Source of the DNA: Pseudofabraea citricarpa
Taxonomy: Eukaryota > Ascomycota > Leotiomycetes > Helotiales > Dermateaceae
DNA length: 64,000 nt
NCBI GenBank assembly: GCA_029641185.1
Contig: JAPWGK010000003.1
Location: 2,170,001 to 2,234,000, forward strand
Reading direction: 5' to 3'
Under the pieces are notes generated by a model. It was not told where the DNA came from, searched no databases, and saw nothing but the letters and a program-made list of their open reading frames with translations. Positions 5,386-63,416 of this stretch are shown here, in pieces. How positions within the stretch are numbered: position 1 is the first letter of the stretch; each line of letters opens with the position of its first letter. Made by a program: the position numbers and the translations under genes.

Positions 5386-8300
5386 CTAAAGAGCGTAGGG
5401 GTTGAGGGAGCGGATCGTCAAGCATCTAGAGATGTAATTAGCAAAGTTAAGGAAGGACGAGCAGGGATCAACATACGGAGGGCTCTTGGTAAGATCCGTC
5501 TTGAGGATGACAGGGACCCTGGTCATCTCCTTGACATCTTGGATGTACTCCCCATTCTCTTCTCTGAGTGTGAACAGCTTCAAGTACTTTTCTTTCAAGG
5601 AAAGCTTAGCATCCACAGGCTCGGCAGCATGTACCTTGGAGTCGGAGCGAGTGCGATGAAGGCTTCCAGTCGCCATGAGAGAGTTCTTAGTTGGCGACGG
5701 TGGCACACTTTGAGTTGGACGCTCAGCCAATGACACGCCAGCCAGAGACTCAGCAACATCAGAAGCGTCATCCTCGTCGTCAAACAGAGCATCGACATCA
5801 TCAGTAGAAATGGTGCCAGTCTCCATCTGTTTGCGTTGAGCTTCCTCGTGCTCCTTCTTGGCGCGCTCAGCAACCGCAGCTTGACGAGCAGCCGCTGCAG
5901 CATTGGTTGTGCGCTGGGAAGCACCGGCCTTGGGTCGTTCATCTTCTGGGACGTAGGCGGAGGAAGTAACTCCCTTCTCCCAGTAAAGCTCAAGGACACG
6001 CTCGTTCTTACGGAACTCGGCCTTCTTGAGTGGAAGTTGATCACAGTGCACTCGCTTCTCAAAGCCGTACTCTGGAATGAGGACGTCAAAAGCAGAGTCG
6101 TACACACAAATGACAATGCCCTCGCTAATAAGCTCACCACCAACCTCTTCTCTCTTTCTATCCATCATTCTGCAAGATTCAATGTGGACACTCTGCTCTT
6201 GGGCATTCTGTGCCGAATCTTTCTTTGTGTTGCAAGATTCAGTAGTCTTGACGAGTGCCTCCAAATCTTCATTATACTCAATCTTTCCTTCAGAAAGAAC
6301 AGCTTCAAGTTGTCGATGAACAACAAGATCTGCATATCTGCGAGATGGGTTTGTGAAGTGAGTATACAAAGGTACATTAAGAGCGTAATGAGGCCAGAGA
6401 TGTTGAGGAGTCTTTCCGGCGATGTAGTATTTCGCACGGTGCATCGCCTTGACTAGGAGTGTTTCCATACCCTTTCGGATATTGGTGTCGTCAACCTTGA
6501 AAAGACTGTTCTGAAGTGTTCCACTGCTGCTTGTGTCGATTTCGTATCCAATCTTGTTCATACGATCAGCGAATGTTTGGAGTCTCCGTGGGTTAGGGGG
6601 GCCTTGGCGACGGAGCAGTGCTTTGTCTGGTAAACCCTTTGCAATCTTTTGGGCAACATAGGCGTTTGCCTTATGTAACAATTCCTCGATCAGTTCATGC
6701 GAAGTGGTGGAATCAAAGATGTTATGTTCTACAGGGACATTTTCATCATCTAGTTGATAGATGAGTCTCAATGGCGCGATGGTCTCTCCATCAGAACCCA
6801 AACGAGTCTCACGGAATTTCTGTGCGACAGCCTAAAATTATTAGCAAATCATCTTGCACTGAAGGTAAGTACGGTACTTACATGTAGGATCTGAATATCC
6901 TTGACTTCAGCACCATCAAGCTTGGTGTCAACCTGACCTGCAAGTACGGCATCAACCTCCTTGTAAGTGAGCTTGCCTGCACTCTTGATAATACTCTTTC
7001 CAATCCAAGTGTCATCATCAGATACCGCTCCAGTCTGTGGGTTGACTTTGAAGACAACACTGACAGTGAGACGCTCTTGACCCGGAGTTAACGAACAGAC
7101 CTCTGAAGCAATCTTTGGTGGCAACATGTTGCAAGCTCTGTTCATGAGGTAAACGGCAGTTCCCCGCTTCTTGGCCTCACGGTCTACAAGAGAGTTTGCT
7201 TTGATGAAATGTGCAACATCAGCAATGTGAATACCGATCTCAATCTTTCCGTCAGTTTGAGTCTTAACATGAATAGCATCGTCAAGCTCGTTAGCTCCAT
7301 TTGGATCAATTGTGAAGGTCTTCTCTTCACGGAAATCTCGTCGAGCTGCAATGGCCGCCTCATCTTCCTTGGCGAGGTCCCAGTCATCAAGTCCAACACT
7401 TCGAGTAACGGCATCGGAGAACTCATCAGATGCAAAGTTATTGTCTCGGAGAAGTGCATCCGTCTCGACCTTCAGTTCGCCCATCTTACCCAGTTGCTCA
7501 ACAAGCGTACCGAAGGGATGAAGAGAAGTGATTGGCCATCGCTTAATGCATGCAACAAAGATGCGGTCGGCATAATCTTGGTGCTTCTCAACAAAGTCAC
7601 GAGGGGCTTGTTCGGTAGGAATAGCAATGAGTGGAACTCGCTTGTCGGTTGGCTTGAACCAAACAATCTTTGGCTTGTCTTGTTGTCTTTGCTCTTGGTG
7701 ACGACCATTGTGACCATCTCTAGCTTGACGTTCAGCTTCCTGCTTCTCTTTTGTAGCTTGACTGCTGGGTCTCAAGAGGCCAAGAGTACCCGAAAACATC
7801 TGACCAGCAACTCGCTCAATGACGGCCACAATGTGGCCTGCATAGAGAGGCTTCTGTTCGTCGTTTACCTCTTCTTCTTCAACAAGCAAGAGGCTCTGGC
7901 CTTCGACCTCGACGTCATCGTTCTTCTTCTGCGTGGGTCGCTGTCTCAAGCTTCCACGTCTTCTGATGCCACCTTCGTTATTACTCTGCTCATCACCAGT
8001 AGTAGAGTTGTCACGATGGGATCTATCGTTGTTGTTGTTGTTTGAATTACCACCTCGGGTGTCAGTGATGTCTTTGCGCTTCTTCTTCTCTTCTTTCTCG
8101 CGCTTCTGGCCCCACACTTCATCAACGTCAAGCAATTCTACAGCAACGAGATCTCCTTCGAGAGCTCGGTTACGATCCTTACTACCGCAAATGAAAATGT
8201 CAGCGTCAAGCAAACCATCCTGTGTGGACACATAGGCATCACTGCGATTCTTCTTGTTGACTCGCAAGATACCAGATACAAGTTGACCATCTCCCAACAG

Positions 8301-9800
8301 AGCAGGAAGTGTTGCTTGCGGAAGGTAGGGTGTGAAAAGTGTCTTTCGTTGCTGCTGCTGTTGTTGCGCAGAAAGTTGAGGAGCATGCTGACTACCTTGG
8401 AGGCCAACATGGCCGTTCATCTGAGCAGCTTGTAGTGCTTGAAGCTGGTTCATCTGCAGAGGGTTCAATTGCTGGCCAGGGTATAGCGGCTGTTGAACCA
8501 AAGCCATCTGGCCTTGCGGCAATTGGACCAACTGAGGCTGAGATCCATATTGAAAGTTGCCAATTGAGTTGACAGATTGGTTCATGGACCCGCGGGTGCG
8601 GTGACCAGGTTGGAAGTTACCCTGCTGTTGTTGTTGGCCGCCTTGGGCAAAGTTGCCCATTTGACCTTGTTGATCTTGCTGACCACCCTGAGCTTGCGGT
8701 GGTTGATTTCTCCAATTGCCTTCGAAATTGCGAGAAGAGTTTCGGGCGTGACCAGTCGCACTGCCCCTTCGCTGGAAGTCATTGGCTTGGGCCGCGTTTG
8801 CATCGGCAGGTGCTGGCATAGCGGGGAACTGAAAGTTACCACCACCACGCATGGATGAACCACCTCTTCCATTGGCACCTACTGCCATGCTCTGGCTCCT
8901 ACCATGAGCCCCACCACGTCCACCACGAGTGTTGGTATTTGTGTTATTTCCATTGTTACCTGTAGGTTGGGGTTGGGCAGGTTTGTCATCGGTCTGGCTA
9001 TCTGCTTGAGTGCCTGCAGATCCTGGAATTGGAAATTGGAAGCCAGACGTAGTTCTTTTTTGTTGTGCAATCTCAGCGGCCTTTTTGGCCTCTGGTAGTG
9101 CGAGAGAGTGGCGACGCTGATGTCCACCACCTGGCGGACCACCACCGCCTCGTCCGCCTCTAGCGCCATTGTTCTCCCTATGCTGTTGTGGCTGCTGCTG
9201 TTGCTGCTGTCCGCCAAAATCGCCAAAGGCAGAGCCTGAGGCTCCAGAGGACGGTGCTGGAGGTGGGCCCATGCCCATATTGGGCAGTGCCGATTGATTA
9301 CGGCGATGTGATAATGGTTGCGTTGGAGCCCCCATTGGCGCATTCATCTGTTGCTGTTGTAGCTGACCAGGGAATTGGAAAGCATTCTGGGGCTGGATGT
9401 TTTGCATGTTCTGTTGCAGAGGATTGTATGCACCGGTTGGAGCCAGGTGCTGCGTTGGCGGGATCATGCCCATATTGACATATTGCTGGTGTGTAGCTTG
9501 GATCTGCTGCTGCTGTTGCTGCAGTAGCTCAATTTGCTGCTGGATTGCGAGCTGTTCCACTACAGAGACGACGCGATCAGCATTTGAGGGTATTGAGATG
9601 ATAGCATCTGGTGAAACAGAGTTGCGATGACGACAGATAGCCTTGTTTTACTTACTTCCTGGGGATGAGAACATGCTCATGAGCGGAGTCAGCTCGGAAG
9701 GACTCCTGCGATGTGCAATGTGAAGCCTCCGGCCAGTTGGGCCCGGGACACCACCCTGAGGTGGTGGGGGCTGTGGTTGTTGTTGCTGTTGATGCTCCAT
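5386..9800 (-). CDS. SSD1: SSD1-type translational repressor (RNB-fold RNA-binding protein)
   Basis: Four exons on the minus strand: 9656-9800, 6882-9559, 5477-6831 and 5386-5425. All joins keep frame and give 1405 aa. The middle intron (6832-6881) separates ILH from AVAQKFRET, and the last one gives the C-terminus SPPCLTIRSLNPYAL, both characteristic of Ssd1. The first 450 residues are low-complexity, rich in Gln, Gly and Asn, with Arg-Gly patches and RRHS/RRNQS-type motifs that resemble kinase sites. Then follow cold-shock folds (from about 465, TPYLPQATLPALLGDGQLVSGILRV as a family landmark) and an RNase II/RNB domain from about residue 760. The acidic RNB signature reads TIDPNGANELDDA, with Glu replacing one Asp of active enzymes, in line with Ssd1 being a nuclease-dead mRNA binder. 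In yeast Ssd1 binds cell-wall mRNAs and is regulated by the NDR kinase Cbk1. It is divergent from GLE1. Confidence 0.93.
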
Positions 9801-20125: not shown

Positions 20126-23100
20126 ATGGCTATTGCTGAGCAGTTACCGATCCCTCATCATCGGAAGCGCAAGAGGCGGCGCAGACAGGACAAAGCTGCC
20201 ATATCCGCGAGATTGGTATTGGACGACCATGTGAAAGGAGATATTGGCATTCTATCAGAGGACCTGTTCGCGGATCTATTCCCCGCCCTCGTTCAAAGTT
20301 AGTAGCAGTCGCTGATGTCTGCCATATTCTTTGTTTACTCACAGATTACTAGCCCAATCGAACGAGAGCACTCCACCCCAAACCTCCGAACTTCACCATG
20401 TTGCGATATCCCCATGGACACCTTCTACCGCAGTCGAAGATGCTACCTGGACGCTTGTGTCAGTTCGGGTTTCCAGTGCACTTGCGCACTCGACCGTTCA
20501 ATTTTCTCCCTCTTCACTAGCTCTCCAGGGATTTGCGGAAACATTACAGAAAATTGCACCCTCCAAATTATCGAGTCACAGCAGAAGTGGGATTGAGATA
20601 AGAGTTTTGGATGTGGTGCCATTGGCTTTGGATAGTGTATTTGTGACTCTTGAAGGGGACCTGGCAAAGCGATTAGAGAATGGCGAAGGCACTTTTCATG
20701 GAGAACATCCACAGACGAATGGCCATACAAATGGCAAGAAAACTTCATCTGCGCCTGAAGATCGTTTGACATCTGCCATTCGGGAAGCTCTGTCTTCACT
20801 CAAGATAGTACATAGTGGTGATTTCTTTTCCTTACCACTACCTCCGCATCCTATTACGCATGTTCCTCCTCCTCCAGCAAAGGTCAACTTGTGCGAACCT
20901 GTAGGCCAGGGGATTCTCTCCCCACAAACCAAAATTATCATTACTCAAACGCATCACCATACAAAGCTGGCCAGAAAATCGCAACCACTTCCCTTGAACC
21001 GTGCCTTAAATGAAGTGGCCGAGGATGACGAAGACACTGCGAATGACCAATTTTATTCTGCTACTGAGGATCGCTACAAAACAGATGCGGCTATTGAAGA
21101 GGACGAGCTTGATACAGAAACAGAGACCGAAGAGTCAGGGGCAGACAACGATGATCTTTCTGACGATTCAATGGATGATATGATTTCACTGCAAGCCCCG
21201 ATGCTCCCTGCCTCTAACGTGAGCGGGATGACAACCATTGGTCCTGGAACTCCACATACTGTAGGTTTTGGGCGTAGGACAAATGGAATTAACACCCCTG
21301 GATCTGTGTTCTCAAATTTCACCGCTACAACAGCTCGTGCTAGCGGTCAACGAGGCCGTTTATTCAAGGCACAGGGACTAATGACGCCTCTCCCAGAAGA
21401 GCTTTTGCACCCAAAGCCAACAAGCGATGAGGACTCAGAAGCTCGAGTTTTTGTGGATATTAACTCATTAACCAAGATCGGGTGTTTCTCAGGGGACTGG
21501 GTGCGTCTTGAGGTTGCCTCTGAACCTCCCTCAAATGGCATGGGACTTTGGGGCCTGGGTAGCTTTGGAAACCAAGAACAGGAAGAATCAGCGTGGCGCC
21601 CTGTGAAGGTTTTTGGACTACCTGAAGGCTATTCGCATCGACCGGTAACAAAAATCCCAAGCAGTAAGAATGAAGGACGAAGAATGTCATTCTTTGATTC
21701 CCAAGTTCAAAAGCCTTCGAGTCCCACAGTCTATCTTTCACCTATTCTACTCGCAAACCTAGAAAGCACTCCATATTGTCGGTTATCTCCTCTGAAGAAC
21801 GCGTTACAGCCAGGATCAATACCTGCTCCAAAAATTACAGGGACGTCTCGTCCTCCCTTTGCTCGCGAGTTGACGCTGCTTAAAATCTCAACTCCATTTT
21901 CTACAGAGCGAACATTGCAGAATGCTCTGTTTGCTGGCCTTAAACGTCATTTTAGTGGTTGCACTCGGATTGTCCGTAAAGGAGACGTTGTTGCTATACC
22001 AATTGATGAGAGCCTGGGTCGCACATTATACCAACCGTCCTCAACGGGGGATGAAATTGATGTTGACGACTTGCTATCAAATAACACCACTGAGGATCCT
22101 AGATCCTTCAAATCATTGAAGACCACAGGTGTTGCTTGGTTCAAAATAGGCTATATCGGAACCACAAAGCCAGAATCGGAAGCTCCTGAGACTGATGATA
22201 TATGGGGTGGAGTGGCGTCAATTGATGCGTCGTCAACTCGAATGATGCAGTCGGGAAGTGAAAATAGTCGATTGCCTGCAACCATGGAAAATTGTTGGCA
22301 ATGGTACTTGGGAATGAAGACACTGCCTAGGTCAGCCCCAGGCATTTCTACTACAGGAATGCCAGAACCAAGACGGCAACATGTAACTTCTTTGCAACGT
22401 CGACTTCGGGAATTGATCGCAGCCGCAACAAGTCCTCGAGCAATTCATCTAAAACTGCAGCCCCTCGCGATTCTCTTGGTATCAACGCAAAGAAATATTG
22501 GCAAAGCAACAATGGCATCTCGGGCCTGCGCTGATATCGGTCTTCACACGTTTACCATAGATGCCTATGATATTCTTAGTGAGGGTGGGCAAGGCAGTGA
22601 TGTGAAGACTGTGGGGTTTTTAGAGGCTCGAGCCGAAAGAGCTATGGCCTGTGGTCCAGAATTCTGCTCTCTTTTGATACGCCACATCGAGGCTTTAACT
22701 GCTGACCGAATGATTTCCGCCTTGAAAGAGATTCTTTCTGGCGTGCGAGTTTTAATCGCCACCACGACCGAAGTCGATAAAGTCCCGGATGGGATCAGAG
22801 GACTATTTACCCATGAACTTGAAATGCATGCCCCTGATGAATGGGAGCGAGAAGGTATTCTTCGGAGTATCATAGATGATCAGCCCATAGCTCTTGCACC
22901 TGATGTGGAGCTCAGTGCTGTTGCTGTCAAGACGGCAGCACTTGTAGCTGGTGATCTCGTGGATGTTGTTGACCGAGCTCTTGTAGCTCGAAACTCCCGT
23001 CTGGAATCTCTGGCCTCTTCATCAACAACCGAAGACACTGTTGTTACAGTCCGAGATGTGCTTGTAGCCGGTGGATCATCTGGGCGTTGCCTCACAAAAG

Positions 23101-24551
23101 CAGACTTTGATCTTGCAGTCGAAGCCGCAAGGAAGAACTTTGCCGATGCTATTGGTGCACCCAAGATCCCCAATGTCGGTTGGGATGATGTTGGTGGTCT
23201 GTCCAATGTTAAGGATGCTGTCATGGAAACCATTCAACTTCCTCTTGAACGACCAGAGCTTTTCGCCAAGGGCATGAAAAAGCGTTCTGGCATCTTGTTC
23301 TATGGTCCCCCAGGTACTGGCAAGACATTGCTTGCAAAGGCAATTGCAACCGAATTCAGCTTGAACTTCTTCAGTGTCAAAGGACCAGAACTTTTGAACA
23401 TGTACATTGGAGAGTCAGAAGCTAATGTCCGCCGGGTTTTCCAACGAGCTAGAGATGCAAGACCTTGTGTTGTATTCTTTGATGAACTTGATTCTGTAGC
23501 ACCGAAGAGAGGCAACCAAGGAGATAGCGGTGGTGTGATGGACAGAATTGTTTCCCAACTCTTAGCTGAACTAGACGGCATGTCAGATGGAGAGGACGGC
23601 GGCGGTGGAGTTTTCGTCATCGGAGCTACCAATCGACCTGATCTGCTCGACGCAGCACTACTGCGACCTGGTCGATTCGACAAGATGCTGTATCTCGGCG
23701 TCTCAGATACGCACGAGAAACAGCTCACCATCATGGAAGCTCTAACCAGAAAGTTCGTAACACCTCCTTTTTTATTTCCTTATTTCCTTCCTCTTTCACA
23801 ACCCCCCCAAATATAACATACTAACATCAAACCTCCTTTCAGATTCACACTCCACCCCAGCCTCTCCCTCGCTCGCGTAGCCTCCCTCCTCCCATTCACA
23901 TATACAGGAGCCGACTTCTACGCGCTGTGCTCCGACGCCATGCTGAAAGCCGTGACGCGCCAGGCGGCGCTCGTCGACAGCAAGATCCACGCGCACAACA
24001 ACCAGCACGGGACCAAGATCAGCACGGCCTACTTCTTCGACCACTTCGCTACCAAGGAAGACGTCGCCGTCATGGTGACGGAAGATGATTTCCTCGCCGC
24101 CGAACGCGAGTTGATCCCCAGCGTCAGCGCCAAGGAGCTCGACCACTACGCACGTGTCCGAGGCATGTTCGAGAAAGTCGCTACTCCCGCCGAAGAAGAA
24201 GAAGGAAGAGGAGGAGAAAACGGAGAGAAGGCAGGCGAGAGGAACGGTGCGGTGCTAGCAGCTGATCGGAAAGGGAAGGGGAGAGCCGTAGCTGCCGTCT
24301 CGTCGTCATCGTCCTCGTCTTCCTCTCTGAAGGGAAAAGGAAAAGAGCGCGCGACGACGACGACGACGTGGCATCGCGACGGCGAGTACGACGATGAAGA
24401 AGAGGACAACGAAGGGGACGATGACGAGGAAGGGGAAGCCGGAGCCGGAGCCGGAGCGGGAGGAGTCAACGGCCACTCTTCTCGGGATAAAGGGAAAGGG
24501 AAGGCGGTTTTTGAAGAGCCGAGCGTGGATGATGACGAGGGCTTGTACTGA
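20126..24551 (+). CDS. PEX6: Peroxisomal AAA-ATPase PEX6
   Basis: Three exons: 20126-20297, 20353-23752 and 23843-24551, giving 1426 aa. Pex1 and Pex6 form the hexameric motor that pulls ubiquitinated Pex5 out of the peroxisomal membrane. The long N-terminal region has an acidic low-complexity stretch (residues 230-290). D1 has a degenerate Walker A, reading STQRNIGKAT near residue 765, as expected for Pex6. D2 has an intact Walker A GPPGTGKT at residue 1042, Walker B VVFFDELDSVAP near 1097, and the second region of homology ATNRPDLLDAALLRPGRFDK. The last intron joins ALTRK to FTLHPSLSLARVASLL, which gives a correct C-terminal helical lid. After about residue 1285 there is a tail of about 140 residues rich in Glu, Asp, Ser, Lys and Gly that is not part of the core enzyme. 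The first exon (MAIAEQLPIPHHRKRKRRR) is basic. Confidence 0.92.
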
Positions 24552-33965: not shown

Positions 33966-34637
33966 CGTTCGTTTGGCGGAAGTATTATCAGAGGCTCTAG
34001 CTCTAGAGTATCTGTGTACATCTGCGTCTTATTATTTTCTTCACATACGTCATGTCGTCATGTTGGGGATTGTTCGTTCGTAGGTGGCTTGTGAGCTTTA
34101 TACTTCGAGGACGGAGGACGGAACACGGAACGTGGAAAGCGGAGCGTGAAAGACGGAGGACGACGGTATACGGAGGAAGAAAAGACTGCAGATCTCTATC
34201 TTGTCGAAAACCAGACTTATCCAGATCTATGAAGCTATTAACAAGACAAACCTGTTCTTGCAAACAAGCGAGCGAGCAGCGACCGGGTGAGCTAAGCGAC
34301 GAGAGGTAGATATCTCCTCAGTCCGTTTGCAGCAGCAGCATTCAGAATTAAAGCCACAAAGCCCCAACTGGATTGCTTTCAGTTTCTTCATGTTTTAATC
34401 CCTCGCTTGATATTTCCCATCGGGGTTCTCTCAAACGCCACAGCGTGATGCAAGGGAGAGCGTGCGGGGAAAAGCATGGCAGGGAGATGAATCGAGAGTT
34501 AAGGTTTCCTTCTACCGCGAGATGGTTTATATCTACCTGATATCCGATTCCATCGTGCATGTATGTCGATCTATTCTTCCCTTATTAAAGTCGAAAACTC
34601 AAAGAGATATCAGGGAGTGAAGATCAACAAGACCGAA

Positions 34638-36147
34638 ATGTTCATCCGAATAAGAACCCTCTCTATCCTCGTACTCCTGCCCTTCACACACGCACAAACC
34701 AGCGGGACAGGCACGACGACGCGCTATTTCGACTGCTGCAAGCCGTCATGCGGGTATCCAGGAAAACTAACACCGGCAAGCTTCTCCAACGTCGTCCGAT
34801 CCTGCTCCATCAATGATACGCCGCTCGCAGATTTCAACGCCCAATCAGCATGTGCGGGCGGCAGCGCATATACGTGCAGCGACCAGACACCGTGGGCCGT
34901 GTCAGAGACGCTGGCTTATGGGTTCGCGGCTGTGAACATCGCGGGCGGGAACGAGAAGAGCTGGTGTTGTGCGTGCTATGAATTGACCTTCGCTTCGGGC
35001 GGTGTTGCGGGCAAGAGGATGATCGTCCAAGCTACGAATACTGGTGGGGATTTAGGGGCGAACCATTTTGATTTGGCGGTACGTATCCTATCTTCTTGTA
35101 TCTTATCTTCTTTCTTTCTGTCTTTCTCTAGAGAAAACCACTGTGCGCTGTAACGTGGTCATGCTGATGTAGGTGCAGATTCCTGGAGGCGGCTTCGGAA
35201 TCTTCGACGCCTGTACCACCGAATGGAAAGATACCTCGACCGACTGGGGCGCGCGATATGGCGGTATCTCAACTAGAGCCCAGTGTGATACCTTCCCCGA
35301 ACAGCTAAAACCCGGCTGCTATTGGCGCTTCGATTGGTTCTTGAATGCCGATAACCCGCCTGTCTCGTTCAAGCAGGTTTCTTGCCCGGCGGCGTTGACG
35401 GAGAGGTCGGGCTGTGTTAGAGCGGATGATGAGCAGATTCCCACCGTGTCGTCGGCTGTGTCGAGTTATGGTGGTGTTTCTTCGACGGAGATATTGAGCC
35501 AAGGTACGAGTACGAGTACAGGAAGTCGGAGTACAGGTGCAAGTACAAGTTCAAAGACTTCGAGCTTGAGTACTTGGGTCCCTGCATCTGAGACAGGGAC
35601 GGGGACGGGGTCTTCAGGATTAGTGGCCGCATATGAACAATGCGGAGGGCGGGACTGGAATGGTGGGACGCAATGTATCGGTGGTTATACTTGTGTACCA
35701 CAAGCGGGAAATCCCTACTACAGCCAATGTCTACCGACGCCGTCAACACTCTCGTCTCTATCAAGAAGCACCGCATCAGCTCTCACATCTTCTTCTTCGT
35801 CCTCTCCAGGCACTTCTCAATCTACAACCATACTCACAAAGACTTCTCAGAGCTCAACTCTGTCAGATTACGGTCCTACGCCATCGCCGGGTTCAGGTAC
35901 TACCGCGCCGTCGTATGGCCAGTGTGGTGGTATCGGCTGGACTGGTCCTACGGCTTGTGGCCTGGGATATACGTGTCAGGTTACCAATCCTTATTATAGC
36001 CAGTGCGTCCCCAACCCTACGGATCCAGGTGCCGTCCCGGCGTATGGACAGTGTGGGGGCTTGAACTATAATGGTGCGAGGATGTGTACCGTGGGTTATA
36101 CGTGCAAGATTGTGAATCCCTATTATAGCCAGTGCTTGCCAAGTTGA
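34638..36147 (+). CDS. GH45 endoglucanase with three CBM1 cellulose-binding modules
   Basis: Two exons: 34638-35078 and 35179-36147, giving 469 aa. The signal peptide is [20 protein letters not shown]. The GH45 catalytic domain (residues 25-235) has the hallmark [12 protein letters not shown] with the catalytic base Asp32, and [18 protein letters not shown] with the catalytic acid Asp145. It cleaves internal beta-1,4 bonds of cellulose with inversion. A Ser/Thr linker follows. Three CBM1 modules then lie near residues 298-333, 391-425 and 434-468, each with the AYxQCGG...YTC...NPYYSQC pattern and the aromatic residues that bind cellulose. The intron end is ambiguous: acceptors at 35172 and 35178 are both in frame, and I chose the second because it gives the family sequence DLAIPGGG. 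The first would insert Val-Gln. Confidence 0.92.
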
Positions 36148-37059: not shown

Positions 37060-37065
37060 AAAAAA
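37060..37065 (-). terminator. Pol III terminator of tRNA-Tyr copy 1
   Basis: Six T residues on the minus strand begin 11 bases after the tRNA discriminator base. This is the standard RNA polymerase III stop signal. Confidence 0.8.
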
Positions 37066-37075
37066 TTGTTTGATG

Positions 37076-37268
37076 TCCCTCAGGCGCGAGTCGAACGCGC
37101 GACTTTTGCATCTGTTAGCAGATGCCTGAGAGAAATTTGATGTGGTGAGCTTACCATTCCGGTGAGACTGAACATTACAGCTGAAGAAGGTGTTAGCAAC
37201 TTGTAATGAATTCTCATGGAATGGTGATGTCTTACCCGGACGCCATAAACCAACTAGACGACCGAGGG
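37076..37268 (-). tRNA. tRNA-Tyr (GTA), copy 1, with one canonical and two spliceosomal-like introns
   Basis: Read on the minus strand, the exons are 37236-37268, 37175-37180, 37155-37163 and 37076-37102, making a 75 nt tRNA. Acceptor stem is CCCTCGG/CTGAGGG with C1-G72 and discriminator A73 (Tyr identity). The D arm is AGTTGGTTTATGGC, the anticodon stem TCCGG/CCGGA with loop CTGTAAA (anticodon GTA), the variable loop ATGTC, and the T arm GCGCG-TTCGACT-CGCGC (B box). It aligns position by position with yeast tRNA-Tyr as I recall it. There are three interruptions. The first is a canonical 11 nt intron after position 37 (37164-37174). The second is 55 bp between positions 31 and 32 (37181-37235), starting GTAAGAC and ending GCTAACACCTTCTTCAG. 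The third is 52 bp in the variable loop (37103-37154), starting GTAAGC, with TGCTAACAG and ending AAAAG. Both long inserts have GT-AG ends and branch motifs like the protein-gene introns here. Confidence 0.88.
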
Positions 37269-51600: not shown

Positions 51601-54600
51601 GCAAAGTATTCGTCCTCAGTGGCAAGGACGAGGATGCTACTCGCAAGTTAGCCTCAAACCTGGCAACATATGCTAAAGAACAAGTTTTCGATGAACACCA
51701 AGAATTGGAGAATCTCGCATATACTTTAGCCGAAAGACGTACTGTCTTCCCATGGATGAGTTCAGTGACAGCTAGTTCTCTGAAAGAACTAATCGAGGTT
51801 CTCGAAGATAAGAAGCTGAAAGCAACACGCCGCCATGAAGGCCTACGAATAGGATTTGTCTTTACAGGCCAAGGCGCACAATGGCATGCTATGGGACGTG
51901 AACTATTCGAAGCATATCCCGTCTTCAAAGAGACAATAATAACGGCCGACAAGCATATGAAAACTATAGGAGCACCATGGTCAATTATGGGTAAGTTATA
52001 ACAACACATTTCATGAAGTTTGGTCACTGATAGATACAGACGAGTTACGAAAAGATGCAACCTCCTCACATGTGAACGAAGCAGTTTATAGTCAACCGTT
52101 ATGCACTGCATTGCAAATAGCTCTGGTGAACCTTTTAAAATCCTGGAATGTTTTACCAACCGCTGTAACAAGTCATTCCAGTGGCGAGGTTGCTGCTGCA
52201 TATGCTGCCGGTGCATTAAGTCTGGAGTCGGCCATCACTGTCTCGTATTTTCGAGGGTTCGTCACGACAAAAATCAAGGTCAATGCACCAGGTCTTGAAG
52301 GGGGAATGATTGCAGTCGGACTATCTCGCGAAGAGGCAAATGATTATATTTTACGCATAAATTCTGGTAGGATCGTTGTCGGCTGCGTAAACAGCCCTAC
52401 AAGTGTGACTGTTTCCGGAGATCTTCCTGCGATACTGGAGATGCAGGCTCTTCTCGAAAAAGACAACGTCTTCGTTCGCAAGCTTCCAGTCGATGCAGGC
52501 TACCACTCTCACCACATGGAAGTCATAGCCAATGACTATCGTGCTCTCCTGGGTCGGCACCATCTCAAACCAGAAAGCTGGAGCGGCAATGTATCATATT
52601 CTTCTTCAGTTACGGGAAACTTCATTACCTCTTCAGATGTCTTCGGAGCCAATTACTGGATCGAAAATATGGTCAATCCAGTTTTGTTCATAGATTCTTT
52701 GCGTAACATGATACTAGGAAATACATCCAAGGAAATGTCAGCAACTGGCACAGCTATCGATGCCATCGTCGAAATCGGTCCTCACAGCGGACTGGCTGGG
52801 CCTATAAAACAGATTATGAAGTTACCTGAACTGAGGACACTGTCTATTCCGTATACTTCTTGTCTTATCAGAAAACGGGACTCAGTTCAAACAATGCAAG
52901 AGACAGCATCTCTACTATTGTGCGAGGGATACAACGTCAATCTAAAGGCAGTCAACTTTCCTCTAGGTCAGAGCAAACTCAAAGTTACCACCAACTTGCC
53001 TCCTTATCCATGGACACACAAGACAAAACATTGGCATGAATCACATCTGAACAAGCGACATCGATTTAGAGAAGATGGTTCACACGATCTTCTTGGAGTT
53101 CCTGCAATCAATTCAAACCCCCTCGCCCCTACATATCGTCATGTATTGCGACCTTCTGACGTCCCTTGGGTTAGAGACCATATAATCCAAGGCTCAATAA
53201 TATATCCAGCAGCTGGGTACATCTGTATGGCCATTGAAGGGTTCCGTCAAAGCTTTTACAGAGACTCTTCGAATCTCAGTCGATACAAACTACGTGATGT
53301 TGAGGTTCTTAGTGCTGCAGTTATTCCTGATACAAGTGATGGCGTTGAACTACAGTTGTCGCTTCGGCCAGCGACTGACAAGATCCCTTCTTCTCAAGGA
53401 TGGTACGAGTTCCATGTTTATTCAGTCAGCGATGGAGGTGGTGATAAATGGACAGAGCATTGCACTGGATACATTTCAGCAGAACTCAAGCCAGTTTCCA
53501 ACGAGCCTGTTTGGTCTGGCTTATCCGGCTCATTGTTGTCAAGATCAAAATTCAAAAAGTCCCTTGAAACTGCATCAAAGGATTTTAAAGCGTACGACCC
53601 TGAAAAGCTCTACGAACTTCTAAGGACCAAGAACATTAATCACGGCCCGATTTTCCAAAACATTGAAACCATACGAATTGGAAAGAATCAATCACTTGCT
53701 ACTATATTGATACCAGATACAGCATCTCTTATGCCGTACAGCTTTGAGCGGGAACATGCAATTCATCCGACTACGCTTGATACGATACTCCAGGCAATTT
53801 ACCCCGTTCTTAATAAAATGACAGAAGGAAAAGAAGGCACATTAGTTCCTACATTCTTTAACTCTGTCTCAGTATCATCGTATATCTCCAGTACTCCAGG
53901 TCACCGTTTCGAAGCATTTTCAACAATCAACAAAGCGACCAATAAAAGTGCAACAGCATCAATTTCTGTCTCGGGTATTGAAGCCGAGACAAGTTCCCTA
54001 GCTGTTGAAATATCTGGTTTTAGATGTGATGCAATCGGTAGCTCTTCTGAAGCTGGAGACCTGGAGAAGAAGGATCTCTGTTTCCAGATGCACTGGGATC
54101 ACGATATTTCTACAGTCCCGGACGGATTTCTTGCTGGCACTGACTTCGAATCAAATATTAGCAAAATACTGAATCTACATGCTCATAAGTACCCTGGCTC
54201 CTCCCACCTTGTAATCAATGCAAAAAATGGGACAGCCGCATCGATAATATCTAAACTGGTTCGAGATAGCAAGCGACCACGATCTTGGGTTGGGACCTTT
54301 GACATGACCTACCATGACACAGAAAGTATAGAGTCGGGCAGAATCTATTTCAAAGATATGAAAGATATTGTTTCTGTGAAGCAGCTGGACATTCTGTCCA
54401 ATATTGAAGAGCAGTCTTTCAAGGCTGGTTCTTATGACATGGTCATTTTGGATTATACTTATCTATCGGACACAAATATCGATTCAGCCCTAATGAATAC
54501 CCATAAACTACTAAAAGAAGGAGGGAGATTGCTGGTAATTGACGAGCAGGTTTCTAAGCGACCAAGTTCTATTTCAGATGGCAGAACAGGCCAATTGAAA

Positions 54601-57555
54601 AGTCGACTATTAACACACGATTTCCAGCCTACCGAGAGTAGCTCTGAAGATTGCATATTATCAACTGTCAAGGAAACCTCACCTGCGGTCGCAGATTTGC
54701 CCCCAGTGTCCATCTTCTACGGGAACCTGAGTCCACCTGAGCACTGGAAACAAGCTCTTGAGTCATGTATAAACTCATTAACAGGCCACGCGGTCCCAGA
54801 GGGCCACCCCAAACAAAGTGATGGCACAGGGAGGATTTTTATCTTCCTGGTAGAGGTCATAGAGCCCCTCCTCTCTCATTTAACAGAGAGTGAGTTCATA
54901 GAATTGAGGTCGGCTCTTACAACAGCTAAGGGAGTATTGTGGCTCACAAGGGGTGGATCCATCGATTGTCAAGTACCAGAGAGCAGTCTTGCCACAGGAC
55001 TACTTCGAGTATTGAGGGCTGAAAATACAGGAGTGAAATACGCAACTCTTGATCTGGACCCTGAATCTGATCTCTTCACTGCCGACACTTCGAAGTTCAT
55101 ACTCGAAGTCGTAAAGAGAGTCTTCCTGACAACATTAGATGGATCACAGTTAGATCTAGAATATGCACATCGATCAGGTGGTTTGATGGTTCCTCGACTT
55201 ATCGAAGACTTATCTACAAATGAAATAATCACAGCATCTAATCATCAATCCACCGCCCAAGTTCAACCCTTCAATCAGACGGGCCGTCCGTTGAGAATGG
55301 AAGTTGGAAGTCCAGGACTTCTTGACTCGATGAGGTTCATTGACGACGTCCAAGTCCAATCAGTACTCCCTACCGGCTTCGTTGAGGTAGAGCCCAAAGC
55401 TTTTGGGCTTAACTTCCGGGATGTCATGGTAAGTTTTAGTATCCAAAGATTTCCTCGGAATTTTCTAACAACAAGATCAACTTACTGACTGATGTACCAG
55501 GTTGCTATGGGGCATCTAGACGAGACCATCATGGGTTACGAATGCAGTGGTGTTATCACTCGTGTCGGTACAGCTGTCCCTTCTGACCTTAAGCCTGGAG
55601 ATCGAGTATGTGTCATGATGAAAGGCAATTATGCAAGCCTGATACAAGTGTCCTGGCAAGGTGTTGCAAAAATTCCCGAAAATATGGCCTTTGATATTGC
55701 TGCGTCGATCCCCATGGTCTTCAGTACAGCGTATTATTGTTTGTACGAGATAGCTCGCTTACAGAAAGGAGAAAGCATACTTATACACGCGGCAGCCGGC
55801 GGAGTAGGACAGGCAGCTATCATGCTGGCTCGTCTTGTTGGCGCTGAGATATATGTTACGGTCGGCACAAAAGAGAAAAGAGAATTTGTCGTCGAGACGT
55901 ACGGGATTGCCGATGATCATATATTTTCTAGTAGAAACACGTCTTTCGCTGCGCAGATCATGAGCGCAACCAATGATAAAGGTGTGGACGTTGTTCTCAA
56001 CTGTCTCGCTGGTGCTATGCTGCAAGAGACCTGGAACTGTATTGCAGCATTGGGACGGTTCGTCGAGATCGGAAAGCGGGACTTCGAACTCAACAATCAT
56101 CTTCAGATGGCGCCTTTCACACGAAATGTCACGTTCGCATCAGTTGATCTCATGTATCTCATGAGGTACAAACCAGATGTATTGTCAAAAATTCTGACTC
56201 ATTGCATGGAACTGCTTGCAGCGGAGTCTATCCATTCAGTACAACCGATAACCGTCTTCTCCATGTCGGATATAGAGGAGGCTTTCCGATTAATGCAATC
56301 CGGAAAACACAGAGGCAAGATCATCATTGCACCACAAGTCGACGACAAAGTGATGGTGTTATCTAAACCGGAATCTGCTCGCTTCAGTAGCAATGCCTCG
56401 TATCTTATTGTGGGTGGAGTAGGTGGCATCGGCCGCTCAATCTCTAGATGGATGGTCAAGCAAGGAGTAAAGCATCTGATTCTGCTTTCTAGAAGCGGTC
56501 TGACCCGTCAGCCTGCAAGAGACCTGCTGAACGAGCTTTCAGACGCTGGCTGTGATGTTGCAATATTCAGTTGCGACGTAACCGACAAAGCTCAGCTACA
56601 AAGAGTAGTTGATAAATGTGCAGGTTCGATGCCAGCCATTCGAGGTGTTATACAAGCCGCAATGGCATTGAAAGTATGTTGCTCATCGCAGTGCAAAAAA
56701 GGACTCAGCTAATTTTTTGGAATCTAGGACTATGTTTTTGAACAAATGCCTTACGATTCATACACCGAGGCACTCTATCCCAAAGTCCACGGAACCTGGA
56801 ACCTTCACAAGCAATTCCCGGATAGCAGTCTAGATTTCTTTATCATGCTCTCATCTGCAGCCGGTATTGGTGGAAATCCTGGGCAAGCCAATTACGCAGC
56901 CGGATCGACATTCCTCGATGCCATAGCAAGATATCGCGCTTCCAAGGGGATGCCGGGAGTGACGTTGGACCTGGGCGTGATACAAGACGTCGGGTACGTG
57001 GCGGAGAACAAAGATCTCGCTTCAAGACTTGAGCGATCGGGCCATGTAGCAATCAAGCAATATGAACTCCTCTCGATGATCGAGTCCGCAATCGTCAGCC
57101 CAATCCGGAACCTAGAATCAAGCCAGATCATCTCTGGTCTTGAAGGGGAGGGGAAAGAAGGTACGCCGTGGATGAGAGACCTCAAATTTTCCATCTTGCA
57201 ACAAAATAATCCAGCGGCAGGACTACAAGGTGCGGGTGGTAATAAAGGAGGTCTACCAGATGAACTAAGCGCAGCAAAATTGCTCCCTGATGCTGTTGAA
57301 ATTATATGCAGAGCTATCGCCGGCAAGCTCTCACAAGACTTCATGATTGCTGTATCCGATATTGACTTCGACGAGTCGTTGGGAGTGTATGGGGTTGATT
57401 CGCTGGTTGCGGTTGAGCTGAGAAACTGGATTCTAAGACAGATGAAGGCAGACACATCAATCTTCGATGTCCTACAGAGCAAGAGTTTAAGGGCTCTTGG
57501 AGAGAAGATTGTGACAAAAAGTGAGTATGTGAAGATCGATTCAGGCGATACATAA
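48627..57555 (+). CDS. Highly reducing polyketide synthase with fused N-terminal TLC membrane domain
   Basis: Twelve exons: 48627-49133, 49182-49764, 49823-49971, 50022-50108, 50165-50222, 50270-50603, 50759-51284, 51340-51404, 51452-51990, 52040-55428, 55501-56673 and 56728-57555, giving 2745 aa, all phases consistent. Residues 1-320 form a multi-pass TLC-type domain ([32 protein letters not shown] formed across intron 1). A further helix ([20 protein letters not shown]) and a polar linker run without a stop into the ketosynthase at [15 protein letters not shown] (about residue 357). KS has Cys530, His665 and His705. AT has HSSGE (Ser996). DH has [10 protein letters not shown] (His1330) and Asp1530. 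A shortened, degenerate methyltransferase region lies near 1680-1810. ER has HAAAGGVGQ (about 2175). KR has VGGVGGIG (2383) and the YAAGS motif. ACP has GVDSL (Ser2695). No thioesterase or reductase release domain follows. The polyketide should be reduced but probably not C-methylated. Confidence 0.9.
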
Positions 57556-58154: not shown

Positions 58155-59642
58155 TTAAATGTGAAGCTGGAAGCTTACTGACGCATCCATATCACGAGCT
58201 GTTTAATATTAGTTACCGTGTGTCAGAACTTTAGGATCAAATAAACTTACCCATCTTTACAACCTTCGAGAACTGCACAGCCTTCTCTGCTGCACTTTGC
58301 AGGTCATCGATAGAGAAAATCTTCAATCCAGAGTCGTTGATCAACTTGTGAGCTGCCTCCATGTTGGTTCCTTGCAATCTTGCGATGATAGGAATTCTGA
58401 GGTTCATGCTCTCAACAGTGCTGATAAGACCTTGGGCAATAGCATCACATCTGACAATACCACCGAAGATGTTGACAAAGATGGCAGTAACCTTAGGGTC
58501 GCTAGTGATCAAAGTGAAAGCCTCCTTGATGGCAGCTGGAGTAGCTCCACCACCAACATCGAGGAAGTTAGCTGGCTCTCCTCCGTTAAGCTTGATAATA
58601 TCCATGGTAGCCATGGCAAGACCAGCTCCATTGACCAGGCATCCGATATCACCTCCCAACTTGATGAAGTTAAGGCCAGACTCAGCAGCCGCAACCTCTT
58701 CGGCATCCTCCTGAGTGGTATCGCGCCATGAGAAGACTTCCTTCTGACGGAACTCTGCGTTGTCATCAAATCCAAGCTTAGCATCCATTGCAAGAACTTG
58801 GTGATCTGATGTCTCAGAGAGAGGGTTGATCTCAATTTGAGTGGCATCCTTCTCCATGAAAACCTTGTAAAGCTTCTGGATGGTATCCTTGGCATCGGTG
58901 ATGCACTGCTCGCTGAATCCAAGATCGGTTGCGATCTTGATGGCGATGTCATCAGTGACACCCTTGTGGATATCGATGTATGTTGTGTTGATCGCGTCTG
59001 GGGTCTCCTTTGCAACAGTCTCGATATCCATACCACCCTGCGATGAAGATACGATAACTGGGCCTTGGGAACCGCGGTCCATCAGGATAGCCAGGTAGAA
59101 CTCTCGGCGAGCGAACTTGCGCTCACAGATATAGACGGAATTGCAAAGACGACCTTGAGCACCAGTTTGCTTGGTGACAAGCTTGTGTCCGATCATCTGC
59201 TCTGCAAACATCTTGGCCTCAGTAGGAGAATAGATGACGCGTACACCTCCCTTCAATCCATTGTCGAAGGTTCCCTTTCCACGTCCACCAGCGAGCACCT
59301 GTGCCTTAATGACCATATCATCGCCGCCAATCTTCTTGGCAATAGCCTCTGCTTCAGCACCAGTTGTTGCAACAGAACCTTGAGGAACACCGATACCGTA
59401 CTATATTTGCATAAGCTACTGAATCGTCAATTGGCAAGAGATAAACTGACCTGTCTAAGGAGGTCCGCGGAAAGGTACTCGTGTATGCTTAAAGCTCTCT
59501 TCTGTTGTGCAACGCCTGCTAATCTTGAAGGAGAGACCTATAAGGATTAGCATTTGGCTCATACATATATCGGATCGATTGGCTTTACCTTAGCGGCCTT
59601 GAAGGCAGCCGTGAAAGGCCGGCTACGTGCAAGCTTGAACAT
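58155..59642 (-). CDS. LSC2: Succinate-CoA ligase beta subunit, mitochondrial
   Basis: Four exons on the minus strand: 59589-59642, 59451-59537, 58251-59400 and 58155-58198, giving 444 aa. The short first exon MFKLARSRPFTAAFKAAK is a mitochondrial transit peptide. Exon 2 supplies ALSIHEYLSADLLRQ, and exon 3 starts YGIGVPQGSVATTG, the ATP-grasp N-terminus. The ATP-grasp part contains KAQVLAGGRGKGTF and IEINPLSETSD. The CoA-ligase part has GGEPANFLDVGGGA and FVNIFGGIVRCD. The 44 nt last exon gives the C-terminus ARDMDASVSFQLHI. The enzyme couples succinyl-CoA hydrolysis to nucleotide triphosphate formation in the TCA cycle with the alpha subunit Lsc1. It is divergent from the DUF3245-like gene, with 270 bp between starts. 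Confidence 0.93.
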
Positions 59643-63220: not shown

Positions 63221-63416
63221 TCCCTCAGGCGCGAGTCGAACGCGCGACTTTTGCATCTGTTAGCAGATGCCTGAGAGAAACTTTGATGTGGTGGTTATCT
63301 TACCATTCCGGTGAGACTGAACAATTACAGCTAGAAGTTGTATTAGAATTATTATTCAGAAGAACCGGAGGAGGTAGACTTACCCGGACGCCATAAACCA
63401 ACTAGACGACCGAGGG
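63221..63416 (-). tRNA. tRNA-Tyr (GTA), copy 2, with the same three introns
   Basis: Exons on the minus strand: 63384-63416, 63325-63330, 63304-63312 and 63221-63247. The mature 75 nt sequence is identical to copy 1. The canonical intron after position 37 (63313-63324) is 12 nt, one T longer than in copy 1. The insert between positions 31 and 32 (63331-63383, 53 bp) starts GTAAGTCTACC and ends TTCTAATACAACTTCTAG. It is almost unrelated in sequence to copy 1 but keeps donor, branch motif and AG. The variable-loop insert (63248-63303, 56 bp) starts GTAAGATAACC and shares its 3' two-thirds with copy 1, including TGCTAACAG and the AAAAG end. Nineteen upstream bases also match copy 1. Exon conservation with intron drift argues that both genes are functional. 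Confidence 0.88.

Follow-up and report, generated by a model that had tools for sequence, protein, structure and literature searches.

Putative U2-type spliceosomal introns in nuclear tRNA-Tyr and other tRNA genes of the fungus Pseudofabraea citricarpa

Background

Can the spliceosome act on the transcript of a nuclear tRNA gene? In the usual teaching the introns of tRNAs are cut out by dedicated endonucleases or are self-splicing RNAs, and spliceosomal introns belong to mRNAs, with those of the U6 and U3 RNAs as oddities. The question is raised by a tRNA-Tyr(GTA) gene that lies in a stretch of 64,000 nucleotides (hereafter the window) of the ascomycete Pseudofabraea citricarpa (GenBank assembly GCA_029641185.1, contig JAPWGK010000003.1, positions 2,170,001 to 2,234,000 of the forward strand), and that had been predicted from its letters to be split by two introns of spliceosomal type in addition to an ordinary tRNA intron.

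In fission yeast and in other fungi U6 snRNA, a small structured RNA that Pol III transcribes, has an mRNA-type intron in its gene (PMC10484740). A 2017 survey states that frequent interruption by an intron was at that time known for only two small structured RNAs, U3 and U6 (PMC5832005). The string "spliceosom" does not occur in the available text of a review of tRNA introns, in which algae and nucleomorphs figure as exceptions to the view of unusual insertions as marks of pseudogenes (PMC4090602), and the accessible part of the tRNAscan-SE 2.0 paper speaks of non-canonical introns for archaea (PMC8450103). Our searches of the open-access literature, judged by the titles and abstract openings listed, turned up no report of tRNA genes with spliceosomal introns, which is not in itself proof of novelty.

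Results and discussion

Anatomy of the tRNA-Tyr gene

The gene lies in three exons on the minus strand, separated by two long inserts, I1 and I2 (Table 1). A GTA anticodon, C1-G72 and A73 are the identity elements of eukaryotic tRNA-Tyr, and all of these, along with all four arms, arise when the exons are joined; ARAGORN reads the spliced gene as tRNA-Tyr(GTA) with an 11-nt intron and miscalls the unspliced gene as Glu. The original prediction had described a complete tRNA-Tyr cloverleaf, an A box, a B box and a T6 terminator, inserts of 55 and 52 nt at 31/32 and in the variable loop with GTAAG, CTAAC and AG signals, and a canonical 11-nt intron at 37/38, and each of these elements was recovered at a defined position. 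The boundaries of I1 are set by signals and cloverleaf only, since this insert is present in all four Tyr copies of the genome, and those of I2 are fixed via another copy, L012, in which the exon is unbroken across 46/47. Near the 3' end of I2 a 7-bp hairpin (GCATCTG/CAGATGC) has the branch site in or adjoining its 4-nt loop.

No tRNA was detected anywhere in the window by the tRNA finder or by Rfam at the gathering score. A long pattern for the 3' half of the gene matched twice in the window, with 0.00 matches expected, and these matches are thus not due to chance. The lowest-energy RNAfold structure of the spliced Tyr RNA is not the cloverleaf (-27.0 kcal/mol for the cloverleaf vs -33.4 kcal/mol), the same gap being 0.5-14.9 in intron-free tRNAs of this genome. 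The protein-coding neighbours identified with Pfam are included in Table 1; the window also encodes a 723-aa ELMO-family protein that is 92% identical to a protein of Phlyctema vagabunda, and the named matches ranking below it likewise belong to Helotiales.

Table 1. Coordinates and insert sites of the tRNA and neighbouring genes. Plain ranges are window positions; ranges with a prefix are positions on the named contig.
Feature	Position	Strand	Signals and remarks
tRNA-Tyr copy 1, whole gene	37076..37268 (C23:2207076-2207268)	-	tRNA-Tyr(GTA), three exons
Copy 1 upstream motif CAACAAA	37277..37283	-	putative transcription start motif; starts 15 nt before position 1
Copy 1 exon 1	37236..37268	-	positions 1-31, 33 nt; identical letters in all four spliced Tyr copies
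Copy 1 A box	37250..37261	-	TCGTCTAGTTGG; unbroken in copy 1
Copy 1 insert I1	37181..37235	-	55 nt, at 31/32; GTAAGA..CTAAC(37196-37192)..TTCAG; putative U2-type spliceosomal intron
Copy 1 exon 2	37155..37180	-	positions 32-46; holds anticodon GTA (CTGTAA) and the 37/38 intron
Copy 1 canonical 37/38 intron	37164..37174	-	11 nt, TSEN type; ARAGORN on the spliced gene, anticodon loop
Copy 1 insert I2	37103..37154	-	52 nt, at 46/47 (variable loop); GTAAGC..CTAAC(37118-37114)..AAAAG
Copy 1 exon 3	37076..37102	-	positions 47-73, 27 nt; T arm, 3' strand of acceptor, A73
Copy 1 B box	37087..37097	-	CGTTCGACTCG
Copy 1 T6 run, Pol III-type terminator	37060..37065	-	10 nt past A73
tRNA-Tyr copy 2, whole gene	63221..63416 (C23:2233221-2233416)	-	pattern searches, BLAST
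Copy 2 exon 1	63384..63416	-	pattern searches, BLAST
Copy 2 insert I1	63331..63383	-	53 nt, at 31/32; GTAAGT..CTAAT..CTAG
Copy 2 exon 2	63304..63330	-	holds GTA and a 12-nt 37/38 intron (63324-63313)
Copy 2 insert I2	63248..63303	-	56 nt, at 46/47; GTAAGA..CTAAC..AAAAG
Copy 2 exon 3	63221..63247	-	
Third nuclear tRNA-Tyr locus	C2:814565-814815		
Fourth nuclear tRNA-Tyr locus	C40:400179-400443		
Thr-AGT, 4 genes			insert at 23/24 in three, at 19/20 in one; mature sequences agree
Thr-CGT (L112)	C39:404,430-405,000		insert at 33/34
Thr-TGT			inserts at 26/27 and 45/46
Pro-TGG, two genes (L077, L078)			insert at 4/5, inside the acceptor stem; absent in L079 and L118
Pro-CGG			insert at 7/8
Lys-TTT (L099)			inserts at 9/10 and 46/47; both absent in L100
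Ser-GCT, two genes			insert at 28/29; absent in L049 and L050
Glu-TTC (L113, L114)			insert at 49/50 in both; D-loop insert in L114, absent there in L113
U6 gene, Rfam match	C2:955536-955687		below the family cut-off
Protein: DIS3L2-like nuclease	5389..9647		Pfam
Protein: PEX6	20316..24548		Pfam
Protein: GH45 with three CBM1 matches	34563..36144		Pfam
Protein: reducing polyketide synthase	51970..57552		Pfam
Protein: succinyl-CoA ligase beta-like	58240..59400		Pfam

Inserts in all nuclear tRNA-Tyr genes found

We searched the genome (43,985,132 bases in 43 contigs) with a 3'-half pattern and a 5'-half pattern, each allowing at most 3 mismatches, and with whole-gene BLAST, and all three returned the same four nuclear tRNA-Tyr loci and none besides. 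Going beyond the original prediction, these include a second copy in the window and two copies with a third insert at 8/9. All four genes carry two or three inserts. One lies at 31/32 in every copy; two copies have a further one at 46/47, a third copy has two more at 8/9 and 46/47, and L012 has two more at 8/9 and 52/53. Position 37/38 holds an intron of 11-14 nt alone, so that none of the long inserts sits at the site of the canonical TSEN intron. When the inserts and the 37/38 intron are removed, three of the mature sequences are identical, and the fourth (L011) departs from them at a single T-stem pair, where a compensated change has turned C-G into T-A at 52-62. The exons are 0.97-1.00 identical between copies; I1 shows an identity of 0.59-0.68, where shuffled cores give a mean of 0.57 and a maximum of 0.66. 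The identity is 0.67-0.91 for I2, which has drifted less quickly, and 0.79 for the 8/9 insert. In L012 the third insert lies at 52/53 rather than 46/47, yielding the same mature tRNA on splicing. The exon of L012 continues without a break through 46/47, as exons of other copies do through 52/53, and the copies themselves thereby supply the flanking exon sequence at each site, without use of motifs.

An uninterrupted nuclear tRNA-Tyr gene, which the original prediction had named as evidence against it, was not found in the assembly. A generic Tyr pattern gave 93 matches vs 105 for a reversed-pattern control, that is, no excess, and none of the matches checked was called as a tRNA; 90 of the 93 rows were examined for the T stem, the remaining three repeating or falling inside listed rows. 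Four matches with 4/5 T-stem pairs were considered as uninterrupted Tyr genes and rejected, ARAGORN calling no tRNA at any of them; two of these loci have 6/7 acceptor pairs somewhere in a 14-nt range and at most 4/5 anticodon-stem pairs, which we take as chance. The sole uninterrupted Tyr(GTA) called lies on contig C36, which is mitochondrial by gene content. The 5' exon of the Tyr gene has no exact match in viral contigs.

A fifth candidate, L112, is called by ARAGORN as tRNA-Tyr(GTA) with a 64-nt intron. It was set aside, having G1-C72 instead: once a GTAAGT..CTAAC..TTCAG insert at 33/34 is removed, it reads as Thr(CGT) with an 11-nt 37/38 intron, and the apparent GTA comes from the 5' splice site. 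An intron just 5' of the anticodon thus leads the program to name a Thr(CGT) gene as Tyr(GTA), and annotation pipelines may misname such genes.

Comparable inserts in other tRNA genes

The original prediction concerned a single gene, and the same kind of insert recurs in other tRNA genes of several families (Table 1). In a partial census of 107 nuclear tRNA-like loci there are at least 27 inserts in at least 18 genes, the other 89 loci serving as a comparison set; the inserts are 50-66 nt long (n=27) and occupy 16 insertion sites in all, by our own count of positions on the cloverleaf. Loci were gathered with Rfam and with B-box/terminator patterns that cover some B-box types, so that all counts are among the matches listed, and close reading was given to those in which the acceptor resembled that of a tRNA or which showed family repeats. 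Copies that agree fully in both gene and flanks entered the count once; the 89 comprise loci with an ARAGORN call, some of them odd repeats, and Val, Phe, His and Asp genes were left unsorted. A 37/38 intron is additionally present in 12 of the 18 insert-bearing genes, the Thr-AGT and Ser-GCT genes having none.

Several families combine interrupted and uninterrupted members. The Pro-TGG genes L077 and L078 and their unbroken counterparts L079 and L118 (C23 near 1,615,000-1,629,600; C41:642,400) form a natural pair for the study of intron gain or loss. Among the Glu-TTC genes a further locus, L064, has a different body and no inserts. For Thr, ARAGORN gives this label to four of the 89 other loci (L019, L032, L072 and L110); by our reading the bodies of three of them are those of Met, Ser-AGA and Arg-TCT tRNAs, and L032 is a repeat resembling a tRNA. 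With these four doubtful labels, the statement that all Thr genes are interrupted is less firm than that for Tyr.

The census also yielded loci of other kinds. Four tRNA-like genes at L062 (C7:82,050-83,200) and L068 (C11:111,300), perhaps Ser-like repeats, have CAGATRCGGT in the D arm, G as their last letter and a variable arm reading GTCTTCGGA. L030, L031, L032 and L044 are tRNA-like with an odd anticodon loop, three of them lacking an ARAGORN isotype, and possibly represent a tRNA-derived repeat. An inverted duplicate at C12:2300-4300 and C12:113600-115700 (L038, L039) holds a cluster of three tRNA-Arg(TCG) genes and one tRNA-Arg(ACG) gene. Very long 37/38 introns occur at L013-L018 and L020, 41-64 nt in Lys(CTT) by ARAGORN and 55 nt in Cys(GCA), and by position these are of the ordinary TSEN type.

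Boundaries and splice signals of the inserts

Sixteen of the 27 inserts, lying at 10 sites, have their boundary defined independently of any motif by a gene that is unbroken at the same point. The reference genes were Pro-TGG L079 and L118, Lys-TTT L100, Ser-GCT L049 and L050, and Glu-TTC L113, with the Tyr and Thr-AGT copies serving mutually. All 16 of these inserts can be placed as GT..AG, only 1-3 placements being allowed for each; I2 is among them, and I1 is one of the 11 inserts that lie outside this test. Each comparison string came from a single other gene, and a comparison in which some strings were joined from two copies gave the same 16/16.

A CTAAY branch site is found 8-18 nt before the end of 26 of the 27 inserts, the other having TTAAC; in 2000 shuffles the mean was 1.6 and the maximum 7. 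The combined signal occurs in 17 of the 18 insert-bearing genes and in 6% of shuffles. Of the 89 other called loci 3 have it, and of the 36 other loci with a called intron of at least 28 nt, 2. The 3' sites include a less usual form, I2 ending in AAAG and 7 of the 27 inserts in AAG.

On removal of the inserts ARAGORN calls a tRNA in 18/18 genes, with the expected anticodon in 17/18, the expected isotype having been given in 1/18 before removal; the splicing script accepted only GT..AG joins of 40-80 nt, and its GT and AG counts are therefore by construction and not independent evidence. The one spliced gene misread is Thr-TGT, which has a long 37/38 intron. Rfam at the gathering score matched 8 of 16 loci submitted (14 interrupted, 2 uninterrupted). 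Its match to the two interrupted Pro-TGG genes covers model positions 5-66 only, as a broken acceptor stem predicts. The uninterrupted Lys-TTT gene L100 was also missed, and a missing Rfam match therefore says little.

The third Tyr insert (46/47 or 52/53) has a hairpin in which the stem stays paired although its letters differ (GCATCTG/CAGATGC, ACATGTG/CACATGT; 6 pairs in L011), with the branch site at its loop and with folding z-scores of only -1.2 to -2.3. Our guess is that this hairpin may keep the insert clear of the tRNA arms. Taken together, the inserts display GT..AG ends, a branch consensus at fungal spacing, the size and signals of mRNA introns, and drift of the interior with conservation of the exons, as in U2-type introns.

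Introns of the same form in U6 and protein genes

The genome contains one U6 match; in its Rfam alignment an extra stretch of about 50 nt, with GTAAGC at its start and ACAG at its end, lies between AGAGAAGA and TTAGCATGG. The U6 gene (C2 near 955,480-955,745) reads as four exons with three GTAAG..CTAAY..AG introns. The two further introns flank the first, at CATTTGG/GTAAGT..CTAG/TCAAATTTG and at AAGGAT/GTAAGT..ACAG/GACACGC, and were placed with the Rfam consensus and partly with what we take to be the U6 sequence. The original prediction also held that the tRNA inserts resemble the introns of nearby protein genes, and this is borne out by four introns in the window, defined by in-frame joins between neighbouring coding pieces, which measure 50-94 nt and have GTAAGT, GTATGT, GTACGT or GTTCGT 5' sites and CTAAY or CTGAT; the comparison has an n of 4, each join having been picked among several GT..AG options per gene. 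In most of the four, protein domains run on across the join.

Transcription signals

All four Tyr genes, which were searched without requiring a T-run, have a T6 run 5-11 nt downstream. T-runs follow 18/18 insert-bearing genes, but most of the 14 non-Tyr genes were found with patterns that require one. Upstream TATA boxes are important for tRNA transcription in some plants and fungi, according to the available text of PMC3978253. In the present genome CAACAA, CATCAAA or TAACAA occurs within 60 nt upstream of 15/18 insert-bearing genes and 54/89 other tRNA loci. Six genes have their first intron at 4/5 to 9/10; in five of them a CAACAAA-like motif precedes the mature 5' end by 13-20 nt, and in Pro-CGG by 35 nt. 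As the motif keeps its place relative to the mature 5' end, and not to the A box, the transcription start seems to be the usual one even though the intron displaces the A box.

Weighing the explanations

These observations make it very probable, as judged from sequence comparison, that the inserts are U2-type spliceosomal introns within nuclear, Pol III-transcribed tRNA genes. One could suppose instead that the loci with inserts are silenced or pseudogenic and that the working tRNA-Tyr comes from an uninterrupted gene missing from the assembly or missed by our searches. The Pro-TGG, Lys-TTT and Ser-GCT families do have uninterrupted paralogues, and according to the review odd insertions in eukaryotic tRNA genes mostly affect a single gene among many synonymous ones, which is then presumed to be a pseudogene (PMC4090602), an account that could apply to these three families. 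For Tyr it is improbable: two half-gene patterns, the generic pattern and BLAST found no uninterrupted nuclear gene, the only such gene being on the mitochondrial-type contig; and exons kept at 97-100%, a compensated T-stem change, drifting inserts and T6 runs in 4/4 genes are unexpected of decaying genes.

Another possibility is that the inserts are non-canonical introns cut by TSEN in the bulge-helix-bulge style of red algae, nucleomorphs and archaea, with GT..AG being incidental. Multiple non-canonical tRNA introns are known in such organisms (PMC4090602); TSEN is presumably active here on the 37/38 introns, and I2 has a hairpin near its 3' end, which encloses the branch site and not both splice sites. 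TSEN cleavage predicts no CTAAY at a fixed spacing, whereas this was found in 26/27 inserts and GT..AG was possible in 16/16 motif-free cases; the combined signal is, moreover, confined to 2/36 of the other loci with called introns of at least 28 nt. We regard this explanation as very unlikely. Least probable of all is an origin as group I or group II introns or mobilised insertions. Transfer RNA genes are common targets of both kinds of element, but such introns are far larger than 50-66 nt. Rfam has no match in the window at the gathering score and no group I or II match around the gene at E up to 10, the single match to the unspliced locus of copy 1 (E 0.17) being taken as chance; further, the copies of I1 are hardly more alike than shuffled sequences, and with 1-3 placements per boundary there is no long target duplication.

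Relation to known introns

Spliceosomal introns in these genes would resemble the fungal U6 intron in being of mRNA type in a small structured Pol III RNA, with U6 of this very genome reading as having three. They differ from it in residing in tRNA genes of several isotypes, at 16 sites, with up to three inserts per gene and with a 37/38 intron as well in 12 of 18 genes. Like the introns of fungal U3 snoRNA genes they combine normal splice and branch motifs with a small structured RNA, but in U3 the 5' half holds 133 of the 138 introns (PMC5832005), whereas the tRNA inserts are spread over the whole cloverleaf. The Tyr genes share the canonical 37/38 TSEN intron, here of 11-14 nt; unlike it, the long inserts lie elsewhere in the gene and have splice-site and branch signals. 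Several introns per tRNA gene at unusual positions are also found in Cyanidioschyzon and in the nucleomorphs of cryptophytes and chlorarachniophytes, but the tRNA introns of Guillardia measure 3-24 nt, and those of Cyanidioschyzon are discussed as bulge-helix-bulge substrates (all from the accessible text of PMC4090602).

Proposed processing of the precursors

The spliceosomal reading suggests a sequence of steps in which Pol III would produce a single transcript, beginning with the leader and running through the T-run. In the nucleus the spliceosome would then recognise the GTAAG-like 5' sites and CTAAY branch sites and remove the inserts, and the joining of exons would create the T arm, the anticodon stem or the acceptor stem, and hence the cloverleaf. 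TSEN would next cut the 37/38 intron where present, and RNase P, tRNase Z and CCA addition would complete the ends. As an intron breaks the acceptor stem in Pro-TGG (4/5) or sits just past it in Pro-CGG (7/8) and Tyr (8/9), splicing should precede RNase P. The dual need for spliceosome and TSEN that the original prediction had inferred is supported. A check named there, a list of all tRNA-Tyr genes in the assembly, gave inserts in 4/4 nuclear loci found, and spliceosome-type removal is favoured by the 16/16 boundaries, the 26/27 branch sites, the position shift and the reading of U6; the decoding of Tyr, and probably also of Thr, would depend on the spliceosome.

Conclusions

We consider it likely, on the strength of these sequence data, that Tyr, and probably also Thr, can be decoded in this fungus only by tRNAs whose Pol III precursors depend on the spliceosome, most of the genes needing TSEN too, and that its tRNA genes acquire spliceosomal introns, shift them and perhaps lose them much as protein genes do. 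Such inserts would constitute a new class of tRNA intron, by which translation is tied directly to splicing capacity. If this is true, the spliceosome can act on Pol III transcripts that are short and fold tightly, and the failure of standard tRNA finders to detect or correctly name such genes would be explained. The natural paralogues with and without introns would serve for the study of intron gain in very short genes, and the system would offer a clean test of whether splicing capacity limits the supply of tRNA.
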